Positions 6,431 to 62,913 of a DNA stretch of 64,000 nucleotides are shown in pieces; position 1 is the first letter of the stretch, and the number at the start of each line of letters is the position of its first letter. The notes under the pieces were generated by a model. It made no database searches. It had not been told where the DNA came from and saw only the letters and a list, made by a program, of their open reading frames with translations. The stretch comes from Inhella proteolytica (GTDB taxonomy: Bacteria; Pseudomonadota; Gammaproteobacteria; Burkholderiales; Burkholderiaceae_C): the NCBI RefSeq assembly GCF_016093275.1, contig NZ_JAEDAK010000008.1, positions 1-64,000 of the forward strand, written 5' to 3'. A program made the translations under genes and the position numbers.

Positions 6431-7120
<690 letters not shown>

Positions 7121-35957: not shown

Positions 35958-35985
35958 GGTTTGCTCCTTGTGGGATGGTTAGCGC

Positions 35986-37479: not shown

Positions 37480-37512
37480 GGGGTTCCTCTTCGTGAATGC
37501 GGTGGAGCGAGA

Positions 37513-38022
37513 TCACTCGGCCTTGTCTTCGGGCTTGGGCGCGTCGGCAATCGCCTTGAGCAAGTTCGGGTCCTCGATGATCTTGTTCAGCAGTTCCTCG
37601 GCCTGGCTCTTGCCGTCCATATAGGTCTTGAGCGCGGCGAGCTGGTTGCGCGCTTCCACCAGCTTCTTGAGCGAGTCGACCTTCGAGGCGACCTTGATGG
37701 GCGAGAAGTCGTCCATGCTCTCGAATTCGATCGAGACGGGGATCTGGCCTTCGCCGGTCAGCGCGTTGTCGACCTGGAAGCTCACCTTGGGCTTGATGGC
37801 CGCCATGCGCTTGTCGAAGTTGTCGATGTCGATTTCCATGAACTTGCGATCGGCGACGGCCTTCTTGGCCTCCTCGCTGTCGCTCTTGCCGGCCAGGTCC
37901 GACATGACGCCGACGATGAAGGGCAGCTCCACCATCTTCTTGGCGCCGTACTGCTCAAGCTCGTACTGGATCTGCACCCGCGGTGCGCGGTTGCGTCCGA
38001 TGAATTTCTGACCTTCGCTCAT
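37513..38022 (-). CDS. tssB: T6SS contractile sheath small subunit TssB (VipA)
   Basis: A 169-residue protein with SEGQKFIGRNRAPRVQIQYE at the start, LPFIVGVMSDLAGKS, KFMEIDIDNFDKRMA, FESMDDFSPIKVA and a C-terminal helical KLVEARNQLAALKTYMDGK, the interface with TssC. It lies directly upstream of tssC in the usual order and 30 bases after tssA. Confidence 0.97.
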   Translation of the reverse strand: MSEGQKFIGRNRAPRVQIQYELEQYGAKKMVELPFIVGVMSDLAGKSDSEEAKKAVADRKFMEIDIDNFDKRMAAIKPKVSFQVDNALTGEGQIPVSIEFESMDDFSPIKVASKVDSLKKLVEARNQLAALKTYMDGKSQAEELLNKIIEDPNLLKAIADAPKPEDKAE

Positions 38023-38052
38023 GCTGGGCTCCTTGGGGTAAAGGGGTGGGGC

Positions 38053-40067: not shown

Positions 40068-40073
40068 GGAGGC

Positions 40074-46188: not shown

Positions 46189-46199
46189 GAGCGGGGAGA

Positions 46200-48860
46200 T
46201 CAGGAGATCGCGTAAGTGAAGTCGGTGCCATCCACGCCCACCTCAATGCGCTGGATGCCCTGGCCTTCCAGCATGCGGTTGAGGATGGCCTCGCTGACGC
46301 GCGGCAGGATGGTGTTGGTGAGGATGGCGTCGATCATGCGGCCGCCGCTCTCCACCTCGGTACAGCGCGAGGCCACGAGCTTGACCACATCGTCCGAGTA
46401 GACGAATTCGGCATCGTGGTTGGCCCGCACGCGCTTGACGATGCGGCCGAGCTGCAGCTTGATGATGGCGCCCAGCATCTCGTCCGACAGCGGGAAGTAG
46501 GGAATGGTGACGATGCGCCCCAGCAGCGCCGCCGGGAAGACCTTGAGCAGGGGCTCACGCAGGCTCTTGGCCATGGCCTCGGGGTCGGGCATCAGCTCGG
46601 GGTCGGCGCACATCTGCGCGATCTGCTCGCTGCCCACATTGGAGGTCAGCAGGATCAGGGTGTTCTTGAAGTCGATGTAGCGGCCCTCGCCGTCCTCCAT
46701 CCAGCCCTTGTCGAAGACCTGGAAGAAGGTCTCGTGCACGTCCGGGTGGGCCTTCTCGACTTCATCGAGCAGCACCACCGAGTAAGGCTTGCGCCGCACC
46801 GCCTCGGTCAGCACGCCGCCTTCACCGTAGCCGACGTAGCCCGGAGGCGCGCCCTTCAGCGACGAGACCGTGTGGGCCTCCTGGTACTCGCTCATGTTGA
46901 TGGTGATGACGTTGTGCTCACCGCCATACAGGGTGTCGGCCAGGGCCAGCGCGGTCTCGGTCTTGCCGACGCCGCTGGGGCCGCAGAGCATGAAGACGCC
47001 GATCGGCTTGTTCGGGTTGTCCAGCTTGGCGCGCGAGGTCTGGATGCGCTTGGCGATCATCTCCAAGCCATGCTTCTGGCCGATGACGCGCTCGTTCAGC
47101 GTGTCGGCCAGGCGCAGCACGTTCTTGACCTCGTCGCCGACCATCTTGCCCAGCGGGATGCCGGTCCAGTCCTGCACCACCGAGGCCACGGCCAGATCGT
47201 CCACCACAGGCAGCACCAGGGCCGAGTCGGTCTGCAGGCCGCGCAGCTCACCCTGCACCTGCATCAGTTCGGCGCGCAGCGCGTCGGCTTCGGCTTCGGC
47301 AGCATCGGAGCCCTTGGCGGCCTGGGCGCGCAGCTCGACGATGCGCTGCACCAAGGCCTTCTCCTGCTCCCAACGGGCCTGCAGGCCCTTGAGCTCGTCC
47401 TCATTCGCTTGCAGCTGGGCACGCACTTCGGCCAAGCGCTTGCTGTGGTCTTCACCGTACTGGGTCTCGCGCTGCAGGATCTCCAGCTCGGTGTTGAGCA
47501 CTTCGATGCGGCGCTGGCAGTCTTCCACCGGCGCCGGCGTGGCGTGCTGGCTCACGGCCACGCGGGCGCAGGCGGTGTCGAGCAGGCTCACGGCCTTGTC
47601 GGGCAGCTGGCGCGCCGGGATGTAGCGGTGGCTGAGCCGGACGGCGGCATCGACGGCGGCAGCCTGGATGTCGACCTTGTGGTGCTTTTCCAGCACCGGC
47701 ACCACACCGCGCAGCATCTGGATGCCGCGCGCCTCGTCGGGTTCGTCGACCTGCACGACCTGGAAGCGCCGCGTCAGCGCCGGATCCTTCTCGAAATACT
47801 TCTTGTACTCCGCCCAGGTGGTGGCTGCGATGGTGCGCAGCTTGCCGCGCGCCAGCGCGGGTTTCAGCAGGTTGGCCGCGTCACCCGTGCCGGCCGCGCC
47901 GCCTGCGCCGATCAGGGTGTGGGCCTCGTCGATGAAGAGCAGGGTCGGCTGGGCCGAGCTCTGCACCTCTTCGATGACGGTGCGCAGGCGGTTCTCGAAC
48001 TCGCCCTTCATGCTGGCGCCGGCCTGCAGCGCGCCCAGGTCCAGCGAGCAGATGCGCACCGTACGCAGCGAGGGCGGCACATCGCCCTTGACGACGCGCA
48101 GCGCAAAGCCTTCGACGACCGAGGTTTTGCCCACGCCGGCCTCGCCGGTGAGGATGGGGTTGTTCTGGCGCCGCCGCATCAGGATGTCGACGATCTGGCG
48201 GATCTCCTCGTCGCGCCCAAGCACCGGGTCGATCTCGCCGGCGCGCGCCTTGGCGGTCAGGTCCTGTGCGTACTTGGCCAGCGCGCTGCCCTTGGCGCCC
48301 TCACCCGCCACGGCGCCTGCTTCCTCGCCGGGTGCCACGTCCAGGGCGGTGGCCGACTCCATCTGCTCGGCCGAACCTTCGGTCAGCTGATCGAAGTCTT
48401 CGGTCAGCTTTTCAAACTTGATGCGTTCGAACTGGCGCGAGATCGCCAGCAGGGCGTTCTTCGAGGTGGCGCCGCGCAGCATGCCGATCAGCAGATGGCC
48501 GCTGCGGATCACGTCGGTGCCGTACATCACCGAGCAATAGGTCCAGGCCTGTTCGACCGCACCATCAATGTGCGTGGACAGATCGGACAGCGAGCTGTGC
48601 CCGCGCGGCAGCTTGTCCAGCGCCTTGATGAAGTCGGCCTGCAGCAGGGATTCATCGAGGCCGAAGCCCTTGATGATCAGGTTGAGGTCGCTCTTCTCGA
48701 CCTGGCGCAGCTGGTGCAGCCAGTGCACCAGTTCCACATGGGGGTTCCCGCGCAGCTTGCAGAAGGTGGCGGCGGCATCGAGTGCCTTGTAGGTCGTGGG
48801 GCCCAGTTTGGCAAAGAGTCGGATGCGGCTGATGTCGGTCACTCGGTCCTCCAGTTCCAT
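46200..48860 (-). CDS. clpV: T6SS sheath-recycling ATPase TssH (ClpV)
   Basis: An 886-residue AAA+ disaggregase that dismantles contracted sheaths. The N-domain (about 1-160) has ISRIRLFAKLGPTTYKALDAA and two Clp_N-type repeats. The first AAA+ domain carries Walker A GEAGVGKTS (239-247) and LLFIDEAHTLIGAGG. A coiled-coil middle region of about 420-520 follows, and the second AAA+ domain has Walker A GPSGVGKTETAL (near 628) with VVLLDEVEKAHPDV. It is the first gene of the minus-strand T6SS run, divergent from tagH with 188 bases between the starts. Confidence 0.97.
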   Translation of the reverse strand: MELEDRVTDISRIRLFAKLGPTTYKALDAAATFCKLRGNPHVELVHWLHQLRQVEKSDLNLIIKGFGLDESLLQADFIKALDKLPRGHSSLSDLSTHIDGAVEQAWTYCSVMYGTDVIRSGHLLIGMLRGATSKNALLAISRQFERIKFEKLTEDFDQLTEGSAEQMESATALDVAPGEEAGAVAGEGAKGSALAKYAQDLTAKARAGEIDPVLGRDEEIRQIVDILMRRRQNNPILTGEAGVGKTSVVEGFALRVVKGDVPPSLRTVRICSLDLGALQAGASMKGEFENRLRTVIEEVQSSAQPTLLFIDEAHTLIGAGGAAGTGDAANLLKPALARGKLRTIAATTWAEYKKYFEKDPALTRRFQVVQVDEPDEARGIQMLRGVVPVLEKHHKVDIQAAAVDAAVRLSHRYIPARQLPDKAVSLLDTACARVAVSQHATPAPVEDCQRRIEVLNTELEILQRETQYGEDHSKRLAEVRAQLQANEDELKGLQARWEQEKALVQRIVELRAQAAKGSDAAEAEADALRAELMQVQGELRGLQTDSALVLPVVDDLAVASVVQDWTGIPLGKMVGDEVKNVLRLADTLNERVIGQKHGLEMIAKRIQTSRAKLDNPNKPIGVFMLCGPSGVGKTETALALADTLYGGEHNVITINMSEYQEAHTVSSLKGAPPGYVGYGEGGVLTEAVRRKPYSVVLLDEVEKAHPDVHETFFQVFDKGWMEDGEGRYIDFKNTLILLTSNVGSEQIAQMCADPELMPDPEAMAKSLREPLLKVFPAALLGRIVTIPYFPLSDEMLGAIIKLQLGRIVKRVRANHDAEFVYSDDVVKLVASRCTEVESGGRMIDAILTNTILPRVSEAILNRMLEGQGIQRIEVGVDGTDFTYAIS

Positions 48861-49048: not shown

Positions 49049-50656
49049 ATGACTCTTCAGCTTCGCATCGAAGGACCTTCGGGCAGCCGCGTGCTGCCCC
49101 TGAACCAGGGCAAGACCCTGATCGCCGGCCGCGACGCCGGCGTGGACATCGTGCTGGCAGACCCGGATCGGCTGCTGTCGCGCCAGCATCTCAGCCTGCA
49201 TTGCGGCGAAGACAGCGTCGAGATCACCGTGGTGTCGGCCAGCGGCACCGTACAAACCCCGGTGGGCACGCTGGGCCCGGGCCAGAAGGCCTTGCTGCGC
49301 GCGGGTGATCAGCTTGGCGTGGGCGACTGGCGCCTGCTGCTGGAGGCGGCCGAAGAGGCCGCCGCCGCGCCTGCTGCGACGGCCGCGTCCGACCCCCTGC
49401 TGGCCCTGCTGGGCGGCGGCGGCGCAGGCAATGCGCGCCTGGATCCCCTTTGGCAACCCGCAGCGCCCGCCCCCGTCCAGCCGGCCAGCCAGGGCTTCTG
49501 GGTAGGCGGCGGCGCCCCGGCGGCGCCGGCCGGTTTCTCTGCTGGCCCGGCCGCGCCGCTGGACCATGGGGGCGTGGCCGATCTCGGCATCCGCCCGGCG
49601 GGCGCCCAGGGCGACGGCGCTTCGGCCATCAGCGATTTCCTCGGTCCCGCGCCGGCGGCGCGTGCGCCGGCGGACCTCGGTGCCCTGCTGGTGTCGGCGC
49701 CCTCGCCCGAGCCTTGGGCCGGCCTGCCACCCGTGCTGGCGCCGACCCCCGCGCCCGCCCCCGCACCGCGTGGCGAAGACTTGTGGGACAGCCTGCGCAA
49801 GGCCTTGGTGCCGATGCCGGCCACCACCCCCGAGCCGGCGCCTGCCCCGCTGGCCGAACCGGGCACTTCGCCAGGCTTCTACGCGGTACCCCCACCCGCC
49901 GAGCCCTTGGGAGTCGCCCCTGCCGTGGACATCGGCGCCTTGCTGGGCGGCCTGGGGCCTGCCCCGGCGCCCGCCACAGGGCTGGACTTCGACTTCGGCG
50001 GCCCGGCTGCGCCGCCGCCGGTGTCGAGCGCCCCAGCGATTGACGCGCCCCCCGTGGCCCCGGCCGGCACGGCCGCCGAAGCGCTCGCGAAGGGACTGGG
50101 CATCGCCCTGCCCGCCGACATGGCCGCCGCCGACTGGGAGCGCCTGGGTTCCGCGCTGCGCCAGCTGGTGCAGGGATTTGCCCAACTGATGTCGGCCCGC
50201 GCCGCGCTCAAGCGCGAGCTGCGTGCGCACAACAAGACCGAAATGCCGATGCGCGACGTCAACCCGTTCAAGTCCGAACTGGGCCTGAACGACGTGCTGC
50301 AGCAACTGCTCTTCAATGCCAGCCGCGGCGGCAAGTTCATGCCGGTGGAGCGCGCCGTGCGCGAAGCCGCCGAAGACCTGCTGACGCATGACCTGTCCAT
50401 CATTGCCGCCAGCCGCGCCTGCGTGCAGGGCACGGTGCAGGAGTTCGACCCCCAGCTCTTCGTGCAGCGCTTCGGCAAGAAGGGTCTGCTGGACCTGATG
50501 GCCGATGCCCAGCTGTGGCGCCAGTACCAGGCCTATTACGCCCAGCAGAGCGCCCAGATGGCGGACTGGCTCGAACGCCTGTTCGAAGAGCATTTCGTGA
50601 CCGCCTATTGCAATGAGGCCGAGCGCCTCAGCCAACAACATGTGCCCTTGCCGTGA
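49049..50656 (+). CDS. tagH: T6SS-associated FHA-domain protein TagH
   Basis: A 535-residue protein. The N-terminal FHA domain (about 5-95) shows LPLNQGKTLIAGRDAGVDIV, LLSRQHLSLHCGEDSVEIT and a following beta strand; it reads phosphothreonine. A disordered Ala/Pro/Gly-rich linker (about 110-340) follows. The C-terminal conserved block of about 190 residues includes FKSELGLNDVLQQLLFN, FMPVERAVREAAEDLLTHDL and VQEFDPQLFVQRFGKKGLL. It overlaps the kinase gene by four bases, fitting kinase-dependent recruitment. The start at 49049 is preferred over one 13 codons upstream because the FHA fold begins at once. Confidence 0.93.
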   Translation: MTLQLRIEGPSGSRVLPLNQGKTLIAGRDAGVDIVLADPDRLLSRQHLSLHCGEDSVEITVVSASGTVQTPVGTLGPGQKALLRAGDQLGVGDWRLLLEAAEEAAAAPAATAASDPLLALLGGGGAGNARLDPLWQPAAPAPVQPASQGFWVGGGAPAAPAGFSAGPAAPLDHGGVADLGIRPAGAQGDGASAISDFLGPAPAARAPADLGALLVSAPSPEPWAGLPPVLAPTPAPAPAPRGEDLWDSLRKALVPMPATTPEPAPAPLAEPGTSPGFYAVPPPAEPLGVAPAVDIGALLGGLGPAPAPATGLDFDFGGPAAPPPVSSAPAIDAPPVAPAGTAAEALAKGLGIALPADMAAADWERLGSALRQLVQGFAQLMSARAALKRELRAHNKTEMPMRDVNPFKSELGLNDVLQQLLFNASRGGKFMPVERAVREAAEDLLTHDLSIIAASRACVQGTVQEFDPQLFVQRFGKKGLLDLMADAQLWRQYQAYYAQQSAQMADWLERLFEEHFVTAYCNEAERLSQQHVPLP

Positions 50657-52695
50657 GTGACGACGACCGCACCGTGTACCAGCCCCACCAGACCCCGGAC
50701 GGCGATACCGCGCCGGCGGTGGCACGCGTGGCGGCACCGCCCCCGCCGGAGCCCGAGACCAGCCAGGCCCTGCCGGTCGGCTTCCGCCTGCACGAGTTCG
50801 AGATCCAGTCCAAGCTGGGTGAAGGCGGCTTCGGCATCGTCTACAAGGCCTGGGACCACTCTCTCGGCGCCCAGCGCGCCATCAAGGAGTACATGCCCGG
50901 CGCCGTGGCCCAGCGCGAGGGCATCACCGTCTCGCCGCGCTCGCAGCGCATGCGCGAAATCTTCGACAGCGGTCTCAAGCGCTTCATGGAAGAGGCGCAG
51001 ACCCTGGCCAAGTTCGACCACCCGGCACTGGTGCGCGTGCTGCGGCGCTGGGAGGACAACGGCACCGCCTACATGGCCATGCCCTTCTATGAGGGCACGA
51101 CCCTGCGCGAGCGGGTGCGCCAGATGCCGGAAAAGCCCACCGAGCAATGGCTGATGGGCCTGCTGGCCCCGTTGACCGAGGCCATGCAGGTGGTGCACCA
51201 GAACCGCTGGCTGCACCGCGACATCGCGCCCGACAACATCATGCTGCTGAAGGACAGCGGCCGCCCCCTGCTGCTGGATTTCGGCGCGGCACGCCAGGTC
51301 ATCGGCGACGTGACGCAGGAGTTGACCGCCATCCTCAAGCCCGGCTTTGCGCCGGTCGAGCAGTACGGCGAAACGCCGGGGCTGGAGCAAGGCCCGTGGA
51401 CCGATGTGTATGCGCTCGCGGCCTCGATGCACTGGGCCATCATGGGGCGCACGCCGCCCCCGTCGGTGAGCCGCGTGCTGGTGGACAACTACGTGCCGCT
51501 GGTCAAGGCCGCTGAGGGCCGCTATTCCCCGCGCTTCCTGGCCGCACTGGACAAGGCCCTGCGCGTGGACTCGCGCAAGCGCACGCAGAGCATGGCGGAG
51601 TTCCGCGCCGACCTGGGGCTGGAGGCACCGGCCTACGCCCCGACGCTGGAAATGCCGATCGCCAACCCCGAGCGCCTTCCCAGCGGCAGCGGCACGGCCT
51701 TCGAACCGACGGCGATCGTCGGGGCACCCGCCCCAGCGCCCAGCGCCTACGCCGCCGCGGACGTCACCCAGGTGATGAGCCGGCCCGGCGCCCAGCCCAT
51801 CATGCAGACCGTGGATGGCGGCTTCGCCCCGGCGGCCGATGGCTTGGCCGCGACGGTGCAACTCGGCAGCGAGCTGCTGCCAGGCCATGCCCCCGCGCCA
51901 GCAGGCTTCAGCGCCGCCAGCACGCCGGTGCGCCCGCCATCAAGTGCACCCGTCCCCAGCCTCTCGGCCGGCACAGCTCCGCGTTCGCGCATGCCCGTGC
52001 TGGTTGGCGGCGGCTTGGCCACCGTGGCGGTGTTGGGCGGCCTGGGGTACTGGCTGACGAAGCCGGCGCCCGTGCCGGCACCCGCGCCCGCCACCGTCAC
52101 CCAGGCGCCCGCCGCGCAGGCCCCGGTTGCAGCGCCCGCGCCGACGCCGGCACCGCCCCCCGCCGTCGCGCCCACCCGGTTTGAATGGGAGGCCCAGCTG
52201 GCGGAGCTGCTGAACAAGCAGGACTCAGGCTACGAGCTCACGGTGAGCGGGCTCAAGACCGAATACAGCATCAAGCGCCAGGAGCTCATCAGCTTCCGCA
52301 TGCAGTCCAACCGCGACGGCTACCTGAACGTGCTGTTGCGCGACGCCAATGGCGAACTGGTGCAGGCCTTCTCCAATCTGCCGCCGCTGCGCGTGCGCGC
52401 CGGCCAGCCGATGCAGATTCCGCCCCCGGGCAAGGACGCAATCGCGGTGGCCGAGCCCCTGGGCCAGGACGAGATCCTGCTGGTGATTTCGGCCACGCCA
52501 CGGGGCTATCAGGATCTGGCCGGGCCGCGCAGCGGCAGCTTCCTGAGCCTGCAGACCGGGGAGCCCGCCCACCAGGCACTGCGCAACTGGAAACTGCCGG
52601 TGCCCATCTTGGCCGGGCGCCCGCTGGGCCCCTGCGATGGCGCCGAGTGCACCCAGTACGGCGCCAAGATGCTGACCGTCCAGGTCATGCCCTGA
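50653..52695 (+). CDS. Membrane Ser/Thr protein kinase of the T6SS (PpkA-like)
   Basis: A 680-residue protein. The kinase domain (about 48-320) has GEGGFGIVYKA as the glycine loop, the ATP-binding Lys78 in RAIKEY, catalytic HRDIAPDN (Asp190, Asn195) and LDFGAAR (Asp209). The usual Lys of HRDxKPxN is Ala here, as in several bacterial kinases. A Pro/Ala-rich linker, one transmembrane helix (about 447-468) and another linker follow. The periplasmic C-terminal domain (about 515-680) resembles DUF4384 (GYLNVLLRDANGELVQAF, ISATPRGYQDLAG). It starts with GTG overlapping tagH and should phosphorylate the TagH pathway. Signals sensed by the periplasmic part are unknown. Confidence 0.92.
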   Translation: MSDDDRTVYQPHQTPDGDTAPAVARVAAPPPPEPETSQALPVGFRLHEFEIQSKLGEGGFGIVYKAWDHSLGAQRAIKEYMPGAVAQREGITVSPRSQRMREIFDSGLKRFMEEAQTLAKFDHPALVRVLRRWEDNGTAYMAMPFYEGTTLRERVRQMPEKPTEQWLMGLLAPLTEAMQVVHQNRWLHRDIAPDNIMLLKDSGRPLLLDFGAARQVIGDVTQELTAILKPGFAPVEQYGETPGLEQGPWTDVYALAASMHWAIMGRTPPPSVSRVLVDNYVPLVKAAEGRYSPRFLAALDKALRVDSRKRTQSMAEFRADLGLEAPAYAPTLEMPIANPERLPSGSGTAFEPTAIVGAPAPAPSAYAAADVTQVMSRPGAQPIMQTVDGGFAPAADGLAATVQLGSELLPGHAPAPAGFSAASTPVRPPSSAPVPSLSAGTAPRSRMPVLVGGGLATVAVLGGLGYWLTKPAPVPAPAPATVTQAPAAQAPVAAPAPTPAPPPAVAPTRFEWEAQLAELLNKQDSGYELTVSGLKTEYSIKRQELISFRMQSNRDGYLNVLLRDANGELVQAFSNLPPLRVRAGQPMQIPPPGKDAIAVAEPLGQDEILLVISATPRGYQDLAGPRSGSFLSLQTGEPAHQALRNWKLPVPILAGRPLGPCDGAECTQYGAKMLTVQVMP

Positions 52696-53104: not shown

Positions 53105-53219
53105 ACGCACTCCCGAAACCGCCCCCGCGGACACGGGGCGAGTATGTCCGACTCTGGTTCGGGCCCACCGCCTGCGGTATGGTCCACCACCGATTCAAAC
53201 GCCCTTCGGGAGCCATGCC

Positions 53220-53795
53220 ATGAGGATCTGCAAAACCGCCGCCGCCTGTGCCCTGCTGCTTGTGCTGGGGGGGCAAAGCGCCTTCGCGCAAGACGCCGCC
53301 AAGGAGAAGGTGCTCAAGCCCAAGGAAGTGACGACCGAAGGGCTGATCGACGCCCTGGCCTTGCCCGAGGCCAATGCCAGCGGCGCCACGCGGGGTTTCC
53401 GCCCCGTGGCGCCGGGTGAAAAGCCCAAGCCCTATGGCCCCGGCAAGGCCAATCTGCTCGTCACCTTCGTGACCGGTTCGACGCAGCTGAGTGCTGAGGC
53501 CGAAGCCCTGCTCGACAAGATGGCCGCAGCCATGCAGAGCGACACCCTGGCCGGTGTGGCCTTCCGGGTGCAAGGCCATGCGGACGCACGCGGCGACGAG
53601 GCGCGCAACAAGGAGCTGTCGCAAGGCCGCGCCGAGGCCGTCGTGAAGTACCTGGTGACCAAGCACGGCATCCTGGATGCTCGCCTGGCGGCCGAGGGCA
53701 AGGGCTCCGCCGAGCCGATGAACAAGCAGCGTGTGGATGCGCCGGAGAACCGCCGCGTCACCTTCGTCAGCACGCGCGACCTGCCCAAGCCCTGA
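53220..53795 (+). CDS. OmpA-family periplasmic protein
   Basis: A 191-residue protein with a signal peptide (MRICKTAAACALLLVLGGQS, cleaved after AFA) and a C-terminal OmpA_C domain from about 75: VTFVTGSTQLSAEAEALLDK, VQGHADARGDEARNKELSQG, RAEAVVKYLV and RLAAEGKGSAEP with NRRVTFV at the end. The signal peptide is not a lipobox type, so it is a soluble periplasmic peptidoglycan binder rather than a lipoprotein. Its place after the T6SS kinase suggests it anchors the secretion complex to the wall, a task shared by the OmpA domain of TssL. Confidence 0.85.
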   Translation: MRICKTAAACALLLVLGGQSAFAQDAAKEKVLKPKEVTTEGLIDALALPEANASGATRGFRPVAPGEKPKPYGPGKANLLVTFVTGSTQLSAEAEALLDKMAAAMQSDTLAGVAFRVQGHADARGDEARNKELSQGRAEAVVKYLVTKHGILDARLAAEGKGSAEPMNKQRVDAPENRRVTFVSTRDLPKP

Positions 53796-53807: not shown

Positions 53808-54917
53808 ATGCGGCGCACTTTGGGCGTGACGGTGGGCGTCGCCGCCGGGGTCGGGGCGTTGGCGCTGGGTGGCTACTGGCTGCTTAGCCTGCCGCTGAGC
53901 TCCCAGGCTGCGGACCCGGCCGCCAGCGCCTCACCGCAGTCCTCGGCTGAGCCGGCGTCGGCGACATCGCCCGCGCCGACACAAGCGGTAGCCGAGGCGG
54001 CTCAGCCGGCGGTGCGGCAAGACGCGCCGCCGCTGAGTGCTCCGGCGCTACCGGCTTCCAGCCCGCTCGCCGTACCGGTTCAAGCCCCGCCCCCGGCCGC
54101 CGCCCCGGTGGCGCCGCCGGCCCCCTCCTCCGCACCGGCCGCCAACCCGGACAACTGGCCGCTGCGCAGCACCGCCGCCCTGCTGGCGGAACGCAGCCAA
54201 GGCGACTGGCGCGTGGTGCGCTGGCAGGAAAACCCCGCGGTCGCGGTGCTGCAATTTCCCGACCTCGCCCAGCAAGGTGCTGCGTTGAACCGCCTGGCCG
54301 CCCTGGTGGAAAAGGGTGGCGCCCCGCGGGACCGCCTGCTCGGCAGCGCCGAGCTGCTGCAGCTCATTCAGGCCGGCGGGGACAACCCCCAGACCTTCTT
54401 CGGCGGCCACAACTACCGCCTCAGCCAGCTGCTGCGCTTTCATGGGCTCGCCAATCGCCAGGGCATCGGCCTGAGCCCGGAGGAGCAGCGCCTGCGCCAG
54501 CTCTTCGAGGCCCAGGGCTGGTGGGGGGAGCAGGCCGCCGACAAGGTGCTGATCACCTTCACCGACCTGCAGGCCGATGACCCCGGCACACCGCAAGATG
54601 AAGGCGTGGACGCGGTGCGGCGCGAATCGGTGCTGCGCCACGAGCTCAGCCATGCGCGCTACTTCACCGACCCGCGCTACCGCGCCCGCTGCGGCGAGAT
54701 GTGGCGGCAATGGCTCAATGCGGCCGAGCGCCAGCGCATCCGCAAGGTCCTGGCCGAGCAGGGCTACGACGCCCAGAACGAAGACCTGCTGATCAACGAG
54801 GCCCAGGCCCTGCTCTTCCACACCGCCGACACACGGGCCTTCGGTGCCGCGTCCTTCGGGCTGACCGAAGCCCGACTGACTGCACTACGCAAGCGCTTCC
54901 ACGCGAGCGCCAACTAG
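53808..54917 (+). CDS. Membrane-anchored protein with zincin-like HExxH motif
   Basis: A 369-residue protein of no recognised family. Residues 1-30 hold one transmembrane helix (VTVGVAAGVGALALGGYWLL), residues 31-115 an Ala/Pro/Ser-rich periplasmic linker, and the rest a folded domain with GGHNYRLSQLLRFHGLANRQG and VLRHELSHARYFTDPRY. The latter contains HELSH, with His278, Glu279 and His282. A Glu (331, in LLINEAQALLFHT) 49 residues later is placed like the third ligand of gluzincins. This suggests a periplasmic zinc metallopeptidase, possibly a wall-remodelling or T6SS-linked enzyme; that function is inferred. It lies 12 bases after the OmpA-family gene and is probably co-transcribed with it. 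Confidence 0.7.
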   Translation: MRRTLGVTVGVAAGVGALALGGYWLLSLPLSSQAADPAASASPQSSAEPASATSPAPTQAVAEAAQPAVRQDAPPLSAPALPASSPLAVPVQAPPPAAAPVAPPAPSSAPAANPDNWPLRSTAALLAERSQGDWRVVRWQENPAVAVLQFPDLAQQGAALNRLAALVEKGGAPRDRLLGSAELLQLIQAGGDNPQTFFGGHNYRLSQLLRFHGLANRQGIGLSPEEQRLRQLFEAQGWWGEQAADKVLITFTDLQADDPGTPQDEGVDAVRRESVLRHELSHARYFTDPRYRARCGEMWRQWLNAAERQRIRKVLAEQGYDAQNEDLLINEAQALLFHTADTRAFGAASFGLTEARLTALRKRFHASAN

Positions 54918-54998: not shown

Positions 54999-57900
54999 TC
55001 AGCGCTGGTCGAGCTTGCGCTGCTCGAACAGGTAGTCCACCGGCTTGGGCACATTCACCGGGCCGCTGAAGCCGTACTGCGGCGACTGCGGGAACTTGCG
55101 CGCCACCATGAAGCGCACCGTCTCGAACACATTGGCCCCCGGCTTCCAGCTCGGCACCTCGCCCAGGGTCTGGAACAGGTGGAAGGCGAAGGGCGAATGA
55201 CCGTTCTCGCCCGAATCGGCCACCGGCGCATTGCCACCGGAGGACATCACCACCACCGTGCGTTCGCCCAACACCTCGTTCGGGTTCAGTGCCCCGGGGG
55301 CGGGCACGGCACGCAGGCGCTGGCCAGTCACCAAGCTGCCGGAGTAGCAGCTGTCGGACAGCAAGGCCACCTGGCGCGCTGACATGGCCCGCATCAGGCG
55401 CCCGATGTCGTTGTTCGACAGCCAGGTCTCCGGGCGCCGGGCGTCGCTGTCAGCCAGCTGCCAATAGCCCTGCTTGCCCCCCTCGGGCGCATTGATTTCG
55501 TCGCCATGGCCGGCGTAGTACACGAGCACCGAATCCTGCGGGCGCAGTTCCAGCGCCAGACGGTTCAGCGCGGCCACCACCTGGGTCTTGGTGGCATTGC
55601 GCAGCAGCACGGTCTCGTAGCCCAGTCGGCTTTCGACCAGGCTGGCCATGGCTTCGGCGTCACCCACCGCGCCCTCCAGCTGCGGGATGTTGCGGTCCTG
55701 ATAGTCGTTGACACCGATGACCAGCGCGATCTTGCGTTCGATCTGCGGCAAGGCGGCCGTCTTCACGGCGCGGCGCTGGCTGAAGGCGGGCGGCGGCGGC
55801 GCTGCCACGGCCTGGGCCACCGCCGGCGCAGCGGTGGAAGGTGCGGGCGCAGGTGCCGCGCCGGGCGCGGGGCTGGCCGGCGGCTTGATCGCTGACGGCG
55901 CCCCGGAAGCCTCGGCCTGCAGCTCCAGGCGCAGGGCCTCGGTGACGAGGCAATTGCCCGCCTCGGCCTCCTTGCGATTGGTGCAGGTCTGCAGATCGGC
56001 CAAGCCCGGATTGCTTTCCAGGCGGGTCAGCGCTTCCTCAAACAACTTGCGCTTGATGCGGTTGCGCTCGTCCAGCAGTTGCTGGATGGCGTCCATCGAC
56101 ATGCCGCCGAGGTCCACAGCTCCGAATCGCGCGCCCGCGGCGGCGATGCCGGCGCCTGCGGCCAGACCGCCGCCCATGCCCGCGCCACCACCGCTCCCGG
56201 AATTGCCGCCGGAGCCCCCGCTGCTGCCGCCCGAAGTGCCGCTTGGGCTTCCGCCGGAGGTACCACCCGAAGTGCCACCCACGCTACCGCCCGAGCCAGC
56301 GCCCGCGGCGCCGCCGGCCGGTGCACCCGCTCCGCCACCGCCACCCGCCGGCGGCAGGGGCGAACTCAGGTCCAGCACACCCAGCGGCGGCGGCGGGCCG
56401 CCCGCCGGGCCGGTGCCGCCGAGCGGCGGTACACCCGGCGGCGTGCCCGGGTCGGATCCGCCCGCGCCACCGCTGCCGCCACCGCCCACTGGCGTGACCG
56501 CCGGCGTCTGGGCCAGGATTTCCGGCGTCAGCGCATACACCACCAGGGCCGAGGCGTTGCCTGCGGCCTGCGCGAAGCTGTAGTTGGCGGCACTCAGACC
56601 GCTGCCGACGATAGCGAAACTGCCCTCCACCAAGGCCGGGGTGTTGGCGCCCCCCACCGCCGGCGCAGTGAACTGCAGGCTGCCGGTGGTGGCCGTGGCC
56701 AGGCTTTCCCCGGCCACAAAACCCGTCACGCTGCCGCTGAGTTGCCCCACCAACTGCCCGACCAGGCGCTGCGCGGGCGTGGCCACATAGGTCAGCGTGG
56801 CAGGGGTGACGACGCCGGTCAGCGCCGGCAGCGCCAGGGTGTAGTTGCCTGCATCGGCACCCCCGAGCGTCAACCCCGAGAGTTGCACCGGCTTGGCCTG
56901 CCCCACACCCGCCGCATTGCTGCCGCCAAACTGCGCCTGCAGCGTGCCCGCCAGGGCGACCTGGTCCCCCGCCACCGGGCTGATGCTGGGCGTGCCGCTC
57001 AGCGGGGCGCTGGCACTGCCGTCATAGACCTTGCTGCCGACCTGGACGCCCGCCAGGTTCAGCACCCGCGGCGTGATGTCCGCGCTCAGACTGCCGCTCA
57101 GCGTGAAGCTGTAGTTGGCGGCATCGGCGCCACCGAAGCTGAGCCCTGAGACCGTCACCGGCTTGGCCGTACCCACCTGCTTGTTGTTGAAGCGCGCATC
57201 GAGGGCGCTGGCCAGGCTGACCTGATCACCCGCCAGGATGGACAGCACCGGCGTGCCTCCCAGCGTGGCGAGATCGCTGCCGTCGTACACCTTGCTTTGC
57301 GCCTGCAGGCCGCTCACCGTGGCCGGCCGCGGCGTGATGTCGGCTTTCAGCACGCCCGCCGCCACCGGCATGTAGTTGCCGGCATCCGCCCCCGTCAGCG
57401 CCAGGCCCTGCAGGGTGACGGTCTTGCCGATGCCGACGTGCTTGTCGACGAAGCTGGCCGTGAGGCTGGGCGCAACGCCCACGTCATCGCCCGCCAGGGC
57501 CTGGAAGGTCGGCGTGCCAGTCAATTGAGCAGTGACCGTGCCGTCATAGACCTTGCTGCCAGCCACCAAGCCGGCGATGTTCAGCGGGGCTGGCGTGATC
57601 GATGCCGTCAGCGCCGACTCCGGCTTGAGCACGTAATTGCCCGCATCGGCGCCGCTCAGATTCAGGCCCGTCAGCACCACCGGCTTGTTCGTGCCGACAT
57701 GACGGGTGTCGAAGCTGGCGCTGGGGCTGCCGCTGACGACGACGCTGTCGCCCGCCAGGGGCGCCGCGACGGCCGTGCCACTCAGCTGCGCGAGCGTGGT
57801 GCCGTCGTACACCTTGTTCAGTGCCGTGAGTCCGCTCAGCACCAGGGTCGCGGGGGTGATGTCACCGCTCAGCATCAGGCTGCCGGCAAAGCTGTAGTTG

Positions 57901-60900
57901 CCCGCGTCAGGTCCGCTCAGGCTCAGGCCGCTGACCTTCACGGGCTTGCCGGTGCCCACCTGCTTGGTGTCGTAGCTCGCCAGCGGCGTCCCGCTCAGGG
58001 TCACGGAATCGCCACCCAGCGCGGTGGGCACGGCCGTGCCGCCCAGCGTGGCCGTGGTGTTGCCGTCGTAGACCTTGGGCTCGACGATCAGCCCGCCGAC
58101 GGCCAACGGAGCGGGCGTGATATTGGCGCTCAGGCTGCCGCTGAAGTTCAGGACGTAGTTGCCACCGTCCGGCCCGCCGAAGCTCAGGCCGGACAGAGAG
58201 ACCGGCTTGGCCGTGCCCACATGGCGGTCGCTGAATTCGCCCGTCGGATTGGTCAGGCTGACGCTGTCACCCGGCAGCACGGTGAACGAGGCGCTACCGA
58301 CCAGACCGGCGACAGTGGTGCCGTCGTACACCTTGTCTTGCGCGCTGAGGCCCGAGACCAGCACCGCCAGAGGGGTGATGCTGGCCGTCAGGCCGCTCGC
58401 GCCGACGCTGTAGCCATAGATGGGACGACCGGACCCGTCCACCGCCGTGAAGGCATCGGACGAGGTCAAGTCCAGCGGTTTGTCCGTGCCGACGTGCTTG
58501 TCGCGGAACACGGCCGTGACGCCCGGCTTGAGCGTCAGGGTGTCGCCCGCAAGCCCCGAGGCCCCCAGGCCGGAGACCGAGGCGGCCGTGGTGCCGTCGT
58601 AGACCTTGTCCAGCGCCGTGCCGGTGATGGCGGCGTAGACCGGGCTGCTGAAATGGAAACCGTTGCCCTTGCCGGCGATGAAGGTGGTGTCATACCCCGT
58701 CGTGCCGTAGGCCTTGTAGTTGGGATTGAGTGCACCCGGATTGAACTGGTTCTGCCCCGGCGTAAACGTGGCGCTGTCCAGCGGGTGCTGGCCCACCAGA
58801 GTCCATTGGCTGATGTTGCCGCCGAACAGTCCGGAACCCGACTGGTTGTCGATGCGCGACGCGCCCACCGTGCCGTCCTGACCGATCAGCACCGCCGGCA
58901 CCGCGCTGCTGTAGGCGGTGATGAGGCTGGAGCTCTGGAACACCTGGGAATCGGCCTGCAGGCGCATCAGGCCGCCGCCGATCAGCCAGCTGTTGCTCAG
59001 ATTGAGGCTGGGGCCCTTGATGGAGAAGTCGCGCGGATTGGGCGCGAGGTCATCCTGATTGATCTGCGAGCCACTGATCTGGATCGCACCCTGCAGGGCC
59101 TCGATCGAGAGCAGGCCCGTCATGCTGGCATCGAGTGCCTGGTAGGGCGTACTGGCGGCCGCGCCGGTGATCTGCACGGCGGGCGCGCTGCTGGAGTCGG
59201 TGCTGCCCGAGACGCGCAGGCTGCCCACCTGATTGCTGATCAGCACCGTGCCACCGCTGGAGGCATCGATGAGCACCCCGATTGCACCGCTGCCCCGGCC
59301 GGTGCCCTGCACATCCAAGGTGCCGCTGGCCAGGTAGCCATCGTGGTTCACCTGCACCTGCGAACCATTGCGGATGTGCACCCCATGTGTCGAACCCTCG
59401 CCGCGCAGCACCGCGCTCTCTTCCGACAGGATGGACGTGCCGCCTTCCACCAGAATGCCCTTGCCCGTACTGGCTTTGCCATCGATGGTGAGGCGGCGCT
59501 GCGTCAGATCGCTGCTCGTGATCTCGACGCCGGACATGCCCGCGGTGTTGGTGGCACGCAGGCTCAAGTCACCTCCCAGGTTGAAGTCCACGCCGTTCAG
59601 GTGAATGCCCGGCTGGCTCGCGCTACCGGGCGCAGGGGCGCCGGAATAGCCCCCCAGGGTGACATTGCCACTCGTGCTGATGTTCAAACCAGAGGCCAGC
59701 ACGCTACCGGTACCGGAGCGTCCGGCCTGCACGTCGAGCGAGAGATTGGTTCCAAGCGCGCTGATGGTGCTGCCAGAAAAGCTGACATCGCCATCGGCGA
59801 TCAGCGTGAGCGTGAGCGTGCCGACGACGCTGAGCAGCGAGAGATTGCCCGACCAGCTGATGTTGCCGGCCTCGCTGCCCGCGCCACTGGTGGTCACGGT
59901 GACGTTCTGGCCGCCCGCCAAGGCGGACTCCAGCGTGGAAATGGCCACGAAGGAACCGCTGGCCGTGGGCGCCACCAGCACCGGTGCCGTACCGGTCACG
60001 CTGACATTGGTGTCCGAACCGACACCGATGCTGACGTTGTAGGGATCGATCAGCCAAGTGCCCGCCGCGCCGCGCGCGGCATCCACCCGCATCGACGCCG
60101 GCCGTGCATCGAGCCAACCACCCGAGGTCTCCACCAGACCTCCGGCGCCGCCTTGCACACCACCGCGTGCGGAGAAGTGTCCGTAGGCACGCGTCGCCTC
60201 GTCGCTCCACAGCACCACGGTGCCGCCCTGCCCCTGCTGCAGCGCATCGGCGCGCGCCGTGGCCTCGCTGCCGAAGAAAACCGCGCGGGCATTGGGCACC
60301 CGGACGTCCTTGCCCTGCAGGCCGCCGCCGACCAGGATCTCGCCGCCACCGGCCGCGCCCGAGGCATCGACCAGCGCCTGGCCGTCGACCACCACCTCGC
60401 GCCCCAGCAGCTGGATCTGCCCGCCTGCGCCCTGGGTGCCACGTGCGCTCACCTCGCCCAACTGGGTGAGGCGGCCACTGACTGCCTGCAGCAGCACCTC
60501 GCCGCCGCGGGCACCGTCGGCATGCACCTGGCCCTGCTGGCGCACGGCGGCCGCATGCACATCAATGCGGCCGTCTTCGGCCTGGAGAACGCCGCTGTTC
60601 AACACCTCGCCGGCTTCGGCCAGCAGGCGCACGCGCACATGGGGCGCGGCGGTGTCCACCAGCTCGATCTGCCGGCCCGCCGCCAGCACGGCCTGGCCCT
60701 GCGGTGCGGAGATTTGCCCTTCGTTGCGGACATCGGCGGCCAGCAGCACCACTTGGCCGCCCTGGGCGCCGTGCAGCTCGCCCTGGTTGACGATGTGGCC
60801 ACCGGGCAGGCTTGCATCCTGCTCGAAGCGCAGGCGGCCGCTCAGCCAGTCCTGGTCGGACAGGTTCAAAGTGGACGCGACCAGGCTGGCCACATCCACC

Positions 60901-61286
60901 CGCGCCTGGGCGCCGAACAGAATGCCATTGGGGTTCAGCAGCCAGACTTGGCCGTTGCTGGTCAGGCTGCCCAGGATCTGCGAGGGATCCTGCCCGACGA
61001 CGCGGTTGAGCACCTTGCTGGCCGCATTGGCCTGCTGGAAGTGCACGCCGTAGCCGGTGCCGATGCCGAACTGGTTCCAGTTCAGGATCGCATTCGGCGA
61101 ATTGGTCACCGTCATCTGCTGGCCCTGGGTGCTGACCTGGGCTTGGCCGCGCACCACCTGCAGCCCGCTGGGCAGCACCTGGCTGACAGCGGCCAGGGGC
61201 AGGCTGAGCAGGGCGCTGGCGGCCAGGGCCTGGACGAGCGGGCGCAGCAGGAAGGCGCGCGACTTGGAAGTGTTCGAAGTCTTCAT
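54999..61286 (-). CDS. Two-partner secretion exoprotein with C-terminal caspase domain (TpsA)
   Basis: A 2095-residue exported protein. A signal peptide (about 1-35) precedes the haemagglutinin-type TPS domain (about 36-180) with NSPNAILNWNQFGIGTGY, ASKVLNRVVGQDPSQILG and WLLNPNGILFG, which is recognised by TpsB. A beta-helix region follows to about 880, then about 680 residues with seven KVYDG repeats (MBG/YDG type, near 885-1560). Next are a Gly/Pro/Ser-rich hinge (about 1600-1720) and a helical segment with ERNRIKRKLFEEAL. The end (about 1852-2095) is a caspase/peptidase C14 domain: IALVIGVNDYQDR, His1927 in YYAGHGDE and Cys1980 in LLSDSCYSGS. The His-Cys pair is intact. An in-frame start at 61343 is rejected for lacking the signal peptide at its N-terminus. 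Confidence 0.92.
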   Translation of the reverse strand: MKTSNTSKSRAFLLRPLVQALAASALLSLPLAAVSQVLPSGLQVVRGQAQVSTQGQQMTVTNSPNAILNWNQFGIGTGYGVHFQQANAASKVLNRVVGQDPSQILGSLTSNGQVWLLNPNGILFGAQARVDVASLVASTLNLSDQDWLSGRLRFEQDASLPGGHIVNQGELHGAQGGQVVLLAADVRNEGQISAPQGQAVLAAGRQIELVDTAAPHVRVRLLAEAGEVLNSGVLQAEDGRIDVHAAAVRQQGQVHADGARGGEVLLQAVSGRLTQLGEVSARGTQGAGGQIQLLGREVVVDGQALVDASGAAGGGEILVGGGLQGKDVRVPNARAVFFGSEATARADALQQGQGGTVVLWSDEATRAYGHFSARGGVQGGAGGLVETSGGWLDARPASMRVDAARGAAGTWLIDPYNVSIGVGSDTNVSVTGTAPVLVAPTASGSFVAISTLESALAGGQNVTVTTSGAGSEAGNISWSGNLSLLSVVGTLTLTLIADGDVSFSGSTISALGTNLSLDVQAGRSGTGSVLASGLNISTSGNVTLGGYSGAPAPGSASQPGIHLNGVDFNLGGDLSLRATNTAGMSGVEITSSDLTQRRLTIDGKASTGKGILVEGGTSILSEESAVLRGEGSTHGVHIRNGSQVQVNHDGYLASGTLDVQGTGRGSGAIGVLIDASSGGTVLISNQVGSLRVSGSTDSSSAPAVQITGAAASTPYQALDASMTGLLSIEALQGAIQISGSQINQDDLAPNPRDFSIKGPSLNLSNSWLIGGGLMRLQADSQVFQSSSLITAYSSAVPAVLIGQDGTVGASRIDNQSGSGLFGGNISQWTLVGQHPLDSATFTPGQNQFNPGALNPNYKAYGTTGYDTTFIAGKGNGFHFSSPVYAAITGTALDKVYDGTTAASVSGLGASGLAGDTLTLKPGVTAVFRDKHVGTDKPLDLTSSDAFTAVDGSGRPIYGYSVGASGLTASITPLAVLVSGLSAQDKVYDGTTVAGLVGSASFTVLPGDSVSLTNPTGEFSDRHVGTAKPVSLSGLSFGGPDGGNYVLNFSGSLSANITPAPLAVGGLIVEPKVYDGNTTATLGGTAVPTALGGDSVTLSGTPLASYDTKQVGTGKPVKVSGLSLSGPDAGNYSFAGSLMLSGDITPATLVLSGLTALNKVYDGTTLAQLSGTAVAAPLAGDSVVVSGSPSASFDTRHVGTNKPVVLTGLNLSGADAGNYVLKPESALTASITPAPLNIAGLVAGSKVYDGTVTAQLTGTPTFQALAGDDVGVAPSLTASFVDKHVGIGKTVTLQGLALTGADAGNYMPVAAGVLKADITPRPATVSGLQAQSKVYDGSDLATLGGTPVLSILAGDQVSLASALDARFNNKQVGTAKPVTVSGLSFGGADAANYSFTLSGSLSADITPRVLNLAGVQVGSKVYDGSASAPLSGTPSISPVAGDQVALAGTLQAQFGGSNAAGVGQAKPVQLSGLTLGGADAGNYTLALPALTGVVTPATLTYVATPAQRLVGQLVGQLSGSVTGFVAGESLATATTGSLQFTAPAVGGANTPALVEGSFAIVGSGLSAANYSFAQAAGNASALVVYALTPEILAQTPAVTPVGGGGSGGAGGSDPGTPPGVPPLGGTGPAGGPPPPLGVLDLSSPLPPAGGGGGAGAPAGGAAGAGSGGSVGGTSGGTSGGSPSGTSGGSSGGSGGNSGSGGGAGMGGGLAAGAGIAAAGARFGAVDLGGMSMDAIQQLLDERNRIKRKLFEEALTRLESNPGLADLQTCTNRKEAEAGNCLVTEALRLELQAEASGAPSAIKPPASPAPGAAPAPAPSTAAPAVAQAVAAPPPPAFSQRRAVKTAALPQIERKIALVIGVNDYQDRNIPQLEGAVGDAEAMASLVESRLGYETVLLRNATKTQVVAALNRLALELRPQDSVLVYYAGHGDEINAPEGGKQGYWQLADSDARRPETWLSNNDIGRLMRAMSARQVALLSDSCYSGSLVTGQRLRAVPAPGALNPNEVLGERTVVVMSSGGNAPVADSGENGHSPFAFHLFQTLGEVPSWKPGANVFETVRFMVARKFPQSPQYGFSGPVNVPKPVDYLFEQRKLDQR
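56560..58625 (-). repeat. Tandem KVYDG (MBG/YDG) protein repeats within tpsA
   Basis: Seven coding repeats of about 86-91 residues (258-273 bases), each opening with KVYDG and containing a GDSVxL-like strand, a DxxHVGTxKPVxxxGL turn and a GxDAxNYxL segment. The KVYDG codons lie near 58600, 58325, 58065, 57805, 57540, 57285 and 57025. The nucleotide identity between copies is moderate and the repeats are diverged, so they are old. They probably form an extended stalk of stacked immunoglobulin-like modules. Confidence 0.85.
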
Positions 61287-61302: not shown

Positions 61303-62913
61303 TCAGTCGAGCCCGTAGCTGGCAGACAGGTGCAGGCGCACATCGCCGCTTTCAGTCAGGGTGCCGGCGCGGCCGGCGCGGGCCAGGTCCACATGCAGGC
61401 GCCAGGGGCCTTCGCTGTAGCGCAGGCCCAGGCCGACGGCATGCAGGTCGCAGCTCGCCTGGCCCTGTCGGCATTCACCGCCGGTCTCGTTCCAGACCTT
61501 GCCCCAGTCGGCGAACAGCAGGCCGCGCAGTTGGGCGTCGGGCCGGCTGGCCAGGGCCCAGGGCGCCGGGCTCCATTCCACGCTGGCCAGCAGGCCGCGG
61601 TCGCCGGTGATCTCGCGTTCGCGGTAGCCGCGCACGGCATTCGCGCCCGCCAGGCCAAACTGCTCGCCCGGCACCAGGGCGTCACGCGTCCACTGCAGGC
61701 TCATTCGGGCCGTCAGCGAAGCCTGCTTGCCGCCGCCCTGCTGCAGGTGGCCGCCCAGGCGCAGCGCGGTGTAGCGGTAGCGCGCACCTTCACGCACGGC
61801 CTCGAAGTTCGCGGCCTTGGCGTAGCGCCCGCCCAGACCGAGGTTGTGCGAGAGCCCGACATTGGCGCCGAACATCACGCTGCGGCCGCCCTGGATGCTG
61901 TAGTCGAGCGTGAGCGGCTGCACAGTGACCGATTCCCCCGGCGCCCCGCAGGCGCCCTCGGGCAGGCCTTCGATGGTGCAGCGGTTGCGGTACTCGCGCT
62001 GATCGATGCCGGCGCGCAGGCGTTGGTCCCACTCGCCCTGGCGAAGCAGCAGCTGGGTCAGCTGGGCGCCCAGCACATTGCCGCGGCCGTTGAACTGCAG
62101 CGCGCCAGCGGCGGTGGGCGTGCTGCCGCCGTCCACGTTCGAGCGCACCGCATACAGATCGATGCGGCGCGCCGACTCGGGCAGCGGTGCCATGTAGTTG
62201 AGCGAGAGGATGGATACCCGGCTGGGTTCCTCCACCGAGGTCTGCCAGTTCACGCTGGCCTGATGACCCCGCCCGCCCACGTCGGCGTGGCGCAGGCCGG
62301 CGCTGATGCGGGTGCGGCCGGTCTGCTTGGTGCCGGTGTTGTCGAGCGCGAACTGCGGGCGCAGCACCGGGCCTTCGGTGACGATGACACGCGCGTCCAC
62401 GGCACCGATCTTCTGACCCGGCTCCAGCGTGACCGCGAGCTTGCGCGCCGGGTTCTGGTTCGCCAGCTCGACCTGGCGGTTGATCTCGGCGATGCGCGGC
62501 GTCTTGTCCTCCTGCAGGGAAGGCACGGCGCGGCGCACGGACTCGGCGCTGAACTGCTGCGTGCCGATGACGCTGATCAAGGCCAGCTTGCCCTCGAGCA
62601 CGCGCACCTCGGCGACACCATCCGGCCCCGGCTGGAACACGCTGACCAGCACCGCGCCGTAGCCCGCCTCGCGGTACAGCGCCTGCAGGGCCAGCGCGGC
62701 GGTGCGCAGCTCCTGGTTGCTGCGGGGGCCCAGATAGCGCGCCAGCACGGTCTGAAGGCGCGTGTTGTCGACCAAGCTGTTGCCGCTGATCTTGAAGGAT
62801 TGGATGGCGCTGCCTGGCGCCGGGGCCGCGGTCTGCGCAGCCACCCCGACGCTGGCCGCCAGCAGGGCACCGGCCAGCCAGCGGGAGGAGGGAGTCAAGC
62901 TCTTCTTGCCCAT
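61303..62913 (-). CDS. Two-partner secretion outer-membrane transporter (TpsB)
   Basis: A 536-residue Omp85-superfamily transporter of the ShlB/FhaC/HecB type. A signal peptide (residues 1-26, ending GVAAQ) precedes two POTRA domains (about 37-190: IQSFKISGNSLVDNTRLQ; LEGKLALISVIGTQQFSAES). The 16-strand barrel contains GRTRISAGLRHADVGGRG, the loop-6 VRGY motif (near 425) and LRGLLFADWGKVW, and ends with an aromatic/Leu-rich strand. It exports TpsA, whose gene starts 16 bases after its stop. A CRP-like palindrome (63034-63049) lies about 130 bases upstream. Confidence 0.95.
   Translation of the reverse strand: MGKKSLTPSSRWLAGALLAASVGVAAQTAAPAPGSAIQSFKISGNSLVDNTRLQTVLARYLGPRSNQELRTAALALQALYREAGYGAVLVSVFQPGPDGVAEVRVLEGKLALISVIGTQQFSAESVRRAVPSLQEDKTPRIAEINRQVELANQNPARKLAVTLEPGQKIGAVDARVIVTEGPVLRPQFALDNTGTKQTGRTRISAGLRHADVGGRGHQASVNWQTSVEEPSRVSILSLNYMAPLPESARRIDLYAVRSNVDGGSTPTAAGALQFNGRGNVLGAQLTQLLLRQGEWDQRLRAGIDQREYRNRCTIEGLPEGACGAPGESVTVQPLTLDYSIQGGRSVMFGANVGLSHNLGLGGRYAKAANFEAVREGARYRYTALRLGGHLQQGGGKQASLTARMSLQWTRDALVPGEQFGLAGANAVRGYREREITGDRGLLASVEWSPAPWALASRPDAQLRGLLFADWGKVWNETGGECRQGQASCDLHAVGLGLRYSEGPWRLHVDLARAGRAGTLTESGDVRLHLSASYGLD

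Follow-up and report, generated by a model that had tools for sequence, protein, structure and literature searches.

The locus described here raises the question of where, and on what, a caspase-type protease acts when it forms the last domain of a two-partner secretion (TPS) exoprotein. The stretch analysed, referred to below as the window, comprises 64,000 nucleotides of Inhella proteolytica (positions 1 to 64,000 of contig NZ_JAEDAK010000008.1, assembly GCF_016093275.1) and encodes on its reverse strand a TpsA exoprotein with a C-terminal caspase, next to the gene of its TpsB transporter. We found that this fusion recurs in a whole family of proteins, with an invariant His-Cys dyad and a conserved pair of cysteines placed before the caspase. 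Our preferred explanation, which we put forward tentatively, is that these proteins could be TPS adhesins carrying their own release caspase, as if the protease LapG had been fused onto the adhesin CdrA.

Architecture of the exoprotein

The open reading frame (ORF) extends over 54999-61343 of the reverse strand (2114 aa); counted from the ATG at 61286 and without the stop codon, the product has 2095 residues. The features of the protein, together with its transporter gene, are the following.

54999..61286, reverse strand: TpsA-caspase exoprotein, 2095 aa (ORF translation and Pfam)
60549..61181, reverse strand: TPS secretion domain, residues 36-246 (PF05860, 1.8e-32; TIGR01901)
56826..58607, reverse strand: seven YDG repeats, the stalk, about residues 894-1487 (PF18657 in seven stretches, 5.8e-128, and motifs)
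56556..56795, reverse strand: MBG_2 domain, residues 1498-1577 (Pfam, 3.9e-7)
56100..56519, reverse strand: Gly/Pro/Ser-rich hinge, residues 1590-1729 (from the sequence)
55902..56099, reverse strand: pre-caspase Cys-pair module, residues 1730-1795, with Cys1768 and Cys1779; candidate periplasmic anchor or caspase prodomain
55743..55901, reverse strand: Pro/Ala linker, holding the basic patch RRAVK (residues 1838-1842) at 55761-55775, a candidate self-cleavage site
55002..55742, reverse strand: caspase domain, residues 1849-2095, with His1927, Cys1980, Asp1876 and Asp1978 (PF00656 and predicted fold)
61303..62913, reverse strand: TpsB outer-membrane transporter of the ShlB/FhaC type with POTRA_2, 536 aa (PF03865, PF08479; start assigned by eye)

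The VYDG motif occurs seven times within residues 895-1420. Pfam and the sequence itself confirmed the layout given by a first-pass annotation of the same DNA, namely a TPS domain, seven YDG repeats, a Gly/Pro hinge and a C-terminal caspase with His1927 and Cys1980. The tpsB gene (ShlB/POTRA_2) adjoins tpsA directly upstream; with an N-terminal TPS domain and a cognate TpsB gene alongside, the window protein is by its sequence a TpsA, and its secretion through TpsB is predicted. The N-terminal part matches the sequences of EtpA, of the "Adhesin" entry 2odl, which we take to be HMW1, and of the heme/hemopexin-binding protein HxuA, while the C-terminus matches GSU0716 and a yeast-type metacaspase-1.

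Caspase fold and catalytic residues

The Peptidase_C14 profile of Pfam matches residues 1851-2071 at 8.7e-21, with 75.1 bits against a curated cut-off of 21.4, and no other fold was assigned to the C-terminus. The dyad lies in the motifs YYAGHG, which holds His1927, and DSCYSG, which holds Cys1980. An AlphaFold model built on an alignment of 58 C-termini gave a mean pLDDT of 90.9 and a pTM of 0.89, with block means of 90-97 over the pre-caspase module. When this model was compared by Foldseek, the first rows included the yeast metacaspase, a Candida metacaspase, MALT1 and GSU0716 (4f6p and 3bij are among the matches), and all 50 rows listed had a probability of 1.00; the TM-scores were moderate (0.41-0.48 by query and 0.43-0.71 by target, root-mean-square deviation 3-14 Å), probably due to the extra module and the linker. 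His1927, Cys1980, Asp1876 and Asp1978 are invariant in 58 of 58 aligned C-termini. Profile, predicted fold and dyad all assign the C-terminus to Peptidase_C14 (caspase clan), and thus support the earlier proposal of a caspase fold with a complete dyad fused to a TPS exoprotein.

Both invariant Asp residues align with Asp positions of the yeast metacaspase Mca1. In metacaspases these Asp form an acidic S1 pocket and mark cleavage after Arg or Lys, and the same preference is predicted for the caspase described here.

Extent and co-inheritance of the family

A second TPS-caspase is encoded in the same genome (4,975,236 bases), in a 1616-aa frame on contig C12 with 49% identity over the C-terminus, and two of the three TPS-domain proteins of this genome end in this caspase. 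Among 60 relatives, the Inhella genome included, eight places matched at E 4e-61 or better, the next match being at 1.9e-19; of 399 genomes of the order, 29 reached 1e-20 or better, other caspases being included in this set. Relatives are encoded at 345 places in genome contigs, the best 80 of which were kept for the family analysis. By their labels they are mostly Betaproteobacteria (Rubrivivax, Roseateles, Massilia, Pseudoduganella, Nitrosomonas, Rhodocyclus and others), together with two from Deltaproteobacteria/Desulfobulbaceae and one labelled Chitinophaga (L108), which we take for a mislabelled bin.

TPS domain and caspase were found together in 56 non-redundant ORFs, 54 of them complete (1269-3573 residues from stop to stop), so that the combination is recurrent, mainly in Betaproteobacteria. 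These counts drop the same-genome copies L040, L041, L042, L043, L156, L159 and L160; the split frames L046 and L104 were not counted as complete, and L215 stands outside the 54. For 49 of the 56 ORFs, the locus also contains a TpsB gene. Over these 49 loci, pairwise identities of the caspase correlated with those of TpsB (r 0.83) and of the TPS domain (r 0.77), values that none of 2000 permutations reached, and the median identity was 0.50 for the caspase C-terminus and for the TPS domain alike. Judged from these sequence identities, caspase, TPS domain and TpsB diverge together and are co-inherited, unlike a swapped toxin cassette.

Some loci deserve separate mention. In L040/L046 (Inhella gelatinilytica) and in L104 the TPS and caspase parts lie on two overlapping frames, and tpsA there looks frameshifted or misassembled. 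The frame of L042/L080 (7079-12376 of L042) starts right at the end of the contig, and its first stretch looks exonuclease-like by eye; the L042 contig in that draft genome is probably chimeric. The genome of the window holds nine frames with caspase-domain matches (contigs C11, C12, C13, C22, C24, C40 and C43), one of which encodes, by eye, a polysaccharide-deacetylase-like/caspase/TPR-like protein.

A cysteine-pair module before the caspase

The part overlooked by the first-pass annotation is a conserved module that follows the Gly/Pro hinge and precedes the caspase; the model shows it as mostly helical. Its Cys pair is invariant in alignments A1, A2 and A3 (8, 58 and 22 sequences, A2 being the window protein plus 57 of the 66 C-termini listed), and the only three Cys in the whole window protein are 1768, 1779 and 1980. 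In each of the 54 complete proteins, the 160 residues that precede the caspase contain two or more Cys, of which the final two are 7-11 apart, and the caspase domain itself contains exactly one; 29 of the 54 lack any further Cys from the TPS domain onwards.

According to passages of PMC5422565 and PMC8151025, the C-terminal disulfide domain of HMW1 and HxuA is considered to remain in the periplasm and to lock TpsA in TpsB, and CdrA is thought, in a passage of PMC11898600, to use a C-terminal cysteine hook. As HMW1, HxuA and probably CdrA keep a Cys pair in the periplasm as an anchor, by analogy the caspase beyond the pair may stay periplasmic too; the pair of the module would form a disulfide and the C-terminus would be retained on the inner side of the outer membrane. 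A profile of the module found no relative among PDB sequences (best E 0.31), in a search that did not compare it directly with the anchors of HMW1, HxuA and CdrA. Two free-standing caspases also carry the module (L045, with a frame of 392 aa, and L163, with 468 aa); both show a signal peptide by eye and would therefore be periplasmic by default.

The small proteins L087 and L083 were considered as carriers of the module alone and were rejected, since with separate models for caspase and module they match the caspase and not the module. In L215, positions 6450-13118 encode a TPS domain, GLUG repeats and a C-terminal caspase, and the adjoining TpsB-like matches are weak. Giant proteins of other Proteobacteria (L202-L214, L216, L217 and L221) have a C-terminal caspase and a similar preceding helix with no Cys pair; three that were scanned carry an N-terminal DUF4347 and Ig-like or cadherin-type repeats.

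A candidate cleavage site and a possible release mechanism

In 87 segments preceding the caspase, the frequency of Lys or Arg was 0.34, 0.52, 0.51 and 0.43 at positions -13, -12, -11 and -9, and 0.00-0.25 at the remaining 36 positions; at least two Lys or Arg were present in -18..-7 in 67 of the 87 segments, versus 23 of 87 in -40..-29. This basic patch fits self-cleavage and provides a candidate site, which supports as plausible the earlier idea of a processing site near the caspase domain.

The explanation that we tentatively favour would work as follows. An adhesin-like stalk would be secreted by the TPS route until the C-terminal Cys-pair module stalls in or at the TpsB transporter, and the stalled module would retain the caspase domain on the periplasmic side, close to the stalk to which it belongs. 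On a signal, the caspase, a predicted Arg/Lys cutter, would cleave the chain, the basic patch being one candidate site, and this cleavage would set loose the protease or the stalk, or the two together; release of the stalk would require a cut N-terminal to the Cys pair. Our confidence in it is limited because the architecture is established, as are the conserved dyad and Cys pair, the co-inheritance with TpsB and the predicted fold, whereas the periplasmic location, the activity and the release, and with them the putative adhesin function, disulfide, specificity and self-cleavage, are deduced from these.

Several observations weigh against such a mechanism. Other Cys are located earlier in the chain in 24 of the 54 complete proteins, and L215, which comes from another class of the same phylum, is a TPS-caspase devoid of the Cys pair. 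The basic patch is missing from some members (e.g. L099, L107, L108 and L123); moreover, since it is located beyond the Cys pair, cleavage at the patch would release the caspase but leave the stalk attached to its anchor. Of the 17 genomes tested, 5 carry LapG-type genes (PF06035), that of the window among them; the caspase is therefore not simply a LapG replacement, and the idea that it replaces LapG as a rule was not supported. All 10 of 10 places in 100 relatives where the module was found are within caspase reading frames, one of them free-standing. The module as a general TPS anchor was not supported on this ground and, being seen in these relatives only with the caspase, it may be a caspase prodomain instead of a TPS anchor, which we regard as a live alternative.

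Neighbouring genes

Three genes considered as candidate partners sit in the window between tpsA and a type VI secretion cluster.

53808..54917, forward strand: HExxH protein, 369 aa, with an N-terminal membrane stretch or signal (by eye), HELSH and a conserved NExQA; partner candidate
53205..53795, forward strand: OmpA-domain protein with a signal peptide (by eye) (PF00691; start assigned by eye); partner candidate
50653..52695, forward strand: Ser/Thr kinase with a membrane stretch (by eye) and a C-terminal DUF4384 (PF00069, PF14326); partner candidate
28840..48860, reverse strand: type VI secretion cluster; genomic neighbour (Tss names assigned from Pfam names)

The cluster contains VgrG, TssF, TssE, TssC, TssB, TagF, TssM, TssL, TssK and a ClpV-like AAA protein. 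The kinase and the ClpV-like gene are separated by a 632-aa ORF (48839-50737, reverse strand) that had no match in Pfam or NCBIfam.

The HExxH motif, with NExQA downstream, is conserved in 14 of 14 sequences compared (the window copy and 13 relatives), and the protein had no match in Pfam, PADLOC or NCBIfam. Its model is confident (pLDDT 90.8); compared with PDB folds it gave no match at E 0.001 or better, the weak rows including the PPEP-1/Zmp1 metallopeptidases at E 1.8-4. Its metallopeptidase nature is therefore read from the motif, and we consider it a putative envelope zinc metalloprotease of an unnamed family. It was found in 5 of the 399 genomes of the order, all five of which belong to the 29 that have caspase matches (hypergeometric 1.4e-6, uncorrected for relatedness). 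An OmpA gene is located within about 5 kb of the HExxH gene in all four genomes fetched besides that of the window, although in two of these four (G341 and G118) the module-type or nearest family caspase is located elsewhere in the genome.

Across 89 family loci we counted OmpA genes in 40, kinases in 17, HExxH genes in 13 and type VI genes in 17, which are lower bounds as many of these loci are incomplete. The same method gave 0 of 19 for each of the four in control caspase loci and, in a second control set of seven loci, one OmpA and 0 of 7 for the other three; these controls are imperfect because their stretches are shorter (medians 12.0 and 16.0 kb versus 17.2 kb) and come from other lineages. 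The counts also differ among the three clades of a quick tree (SH-aLRT 99, 95 and 95). The 24 relative loci of the window clade include OmpA in 19, HExxH in 11, kinase in 6 and type VI in 4; the Nitrosomonas/Massilia clade has OmpA in 15 of 21 and type VI in 10, and the clade of the second Inhella protein has OmpA in 0 of 17 and type VI in 2. The link with these neighbours is therefore a property of some branches. FHA, PP2C, OmpA, kinase, TagF and TssM are found downstream of tpsA in several loci.

Known anti-phage defence was rejected as a function of the locus, since PADLOC recognised no system in it; its matches were to a generic caspase model (1.3e-14), to kinase models and, on the OmpA domain, to ZorB models.

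Alternative explanations

The neighbours suggest an explanation that we consider rather unlikely, in which signals travel from outside in: the stalk would feel contact or damage, and the periplasmic caspase, together with the OmpA-like and HExxH proteins, would signal by cleavage to the DUF4384 kinase, which would regulate type VI secretion or another response. The counts in the window clade, the type VI genes of the family loci set against none in either control set and the series of genes from FHA to TssM after tpsA are consistent with it, and so are the distances of about 9, 13.5 and 11.5 kb between the caspase gene and TssK in three genomes (G000, G050 and G051). However, 15 of the 17 loci in the clade of the second Inhella protein are without any of these neighbours, Inhella gelatinilytica carries the genes of the OmpA, HExxH and kinase proteins yet gave no match to TssK, and 3 of the 17 type VI loci (L064, L067 and L072) depend on VgrG or FHA matches alone. 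The shortness and different lineages of the control stretches count against it too, as does the weak enrichment of type VI genes (5 of 9 module genomes versus 19 of 91, Fisher p 0.034, uncorrected for relatedness). A fuller version, which seems to us quite improbable, is that of a two-protease envelope sensor, in which a surface stalk fused to a periplasmic caspase, an OmpA-like peptidoglycan binder and the new HExxH family would report contact or envelope damage to the membrane Ser/Thr kinase and, in some lineages, gate type VI secretion; if true, caspase signalling would have a counterpart in bacteria, located at the cell envelope.

The whole protein might also leave the cell and display or shed an active extracellular Arg/Lys protease for digestion or matrix turnover. 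This was the favourite of the first-pass annotation, and we find it unlikely. TPS systems do secrete proteases, such as LepA of P. aeruginosa (a passage of PMC5422565), part of PMC4933709 speculates on extracellular protein degradation by betaproteobacterial metacaspases, and close Cys pairs are expected, in a passage of PMC8151025, to pass through TpsB, so that they need not stop translocation, which also counts against our preferred release mechanism. Nevertheless, display or release of the protease becomes doubtful in view of the module that precedes the caspase, of the free-standing relatives with a signal peptide only (by eye) and of the periplasm-facing neighbours in some branches, with all of which a periplasmic caspase fits better than a displayed one. 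As for attack on other cells, a contact-dependent toxin of the CdiA type with the caspase as its effector is very unlikely, and we rejected it as the main explanation. It would agree with the C-terminal position of the caspase, and in part of PMC3482391 some caspases at C-termini are considered possible toxins, although the export routes named for them are other than type V. Against this, the VENN motif occurs in 0 of 56 ORFs, and the C-terminus is as conserved as the TPS domain and co-inherited with TpsB. The commonest gene following tpsA is that of an OmpA protein (19 loci) and not a small immunity gene; in the window, tpsA is followed by a convergent gene, with no immunity-like gene seen.

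Comparison with known systems

In most discussions, bacterial caspase homologues figure as proteases that act inside the cell in death or signalling. Extracellular roles have also been raised in parts of PMC3501461, and exported caspases are discussed in parts of PMC3482391, which makes too strong the first-pass statement that such domains are normally intracellular. Each of the components (TPS proteins, caspases, Cys anchors and protease-released adhesins) is known by itself. For their combination in a single family we found no published account: TPS-caspase proteins were not described in the open-licence literature searched, which did not cover the figures and supplements of PMC3501461. A conserved family in which a caspase is joined to a surface exoprotein and preceded by an anchor-like Cys pair would assign to bacterial caspases a directly testable envelope role, and the links of some branches to Ser/Thr kinases, OmpA proteins, the HExxH family and type VI clusters make the question of contact sensing testable as well.

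Metacaspases, orthocaspases and the MALT1 paracaspase share with the C-terminus described here the fold, the His-Cys dyad and the DSC motif, and a second Asp is aligned with the yeast metacaspase; the difference lies in the fusion to a TPS exoprotein and in the predicted location outside the cytoplasm. The caspases of polymorphic toxins, for which self-processing or a toxin role is proposed in part of PMC3482391, are also placed at or near the end of large exported proteins. However, Table 1 of that paper gives HINT, the processing protease of type V polymorphic toxins, for type V, and other export routes for Tox-Caspase, and in TPS-caspases no toxin domain follows the caspase. CdiA and FhaB likewise have a TPS domain, a long repeat stalk and a C-terminal domain, whereas TPS-caspases show no VENN motif, immunity-like gene or swapped C-terminus.

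HMW1 and HxuA of Haemophilus influenzae are TpsA proteins with a C-terminal disulfide anchor that is periplasmic or expected to be so (a passage of PMC5422565); their anchor is near the protein end, whereas in TPS-caspases the Cys pair is followed by a protease domain of about 250 residues. The CdrA/CdrB system of Pseudomonas aeruginosa with LapG resembles the proposed mechanism in two ways, being a TPS adhesin whose C-terminal Cys are thought to anchor it in CdrB, and having its release controlled by a periplasmic cysteine protease (passages of PMC5422565, PMC11898600 and PMC4694147). LapG is a separate, transglutaminase-like protein under the control of cyclic di-GMP, while in TPS-caspases the protease is fused to the exoprotein and has a caspase fold; these proteins would thus be adhesins with their own release enzyme, where CdrA and LapA depend on a separate one.

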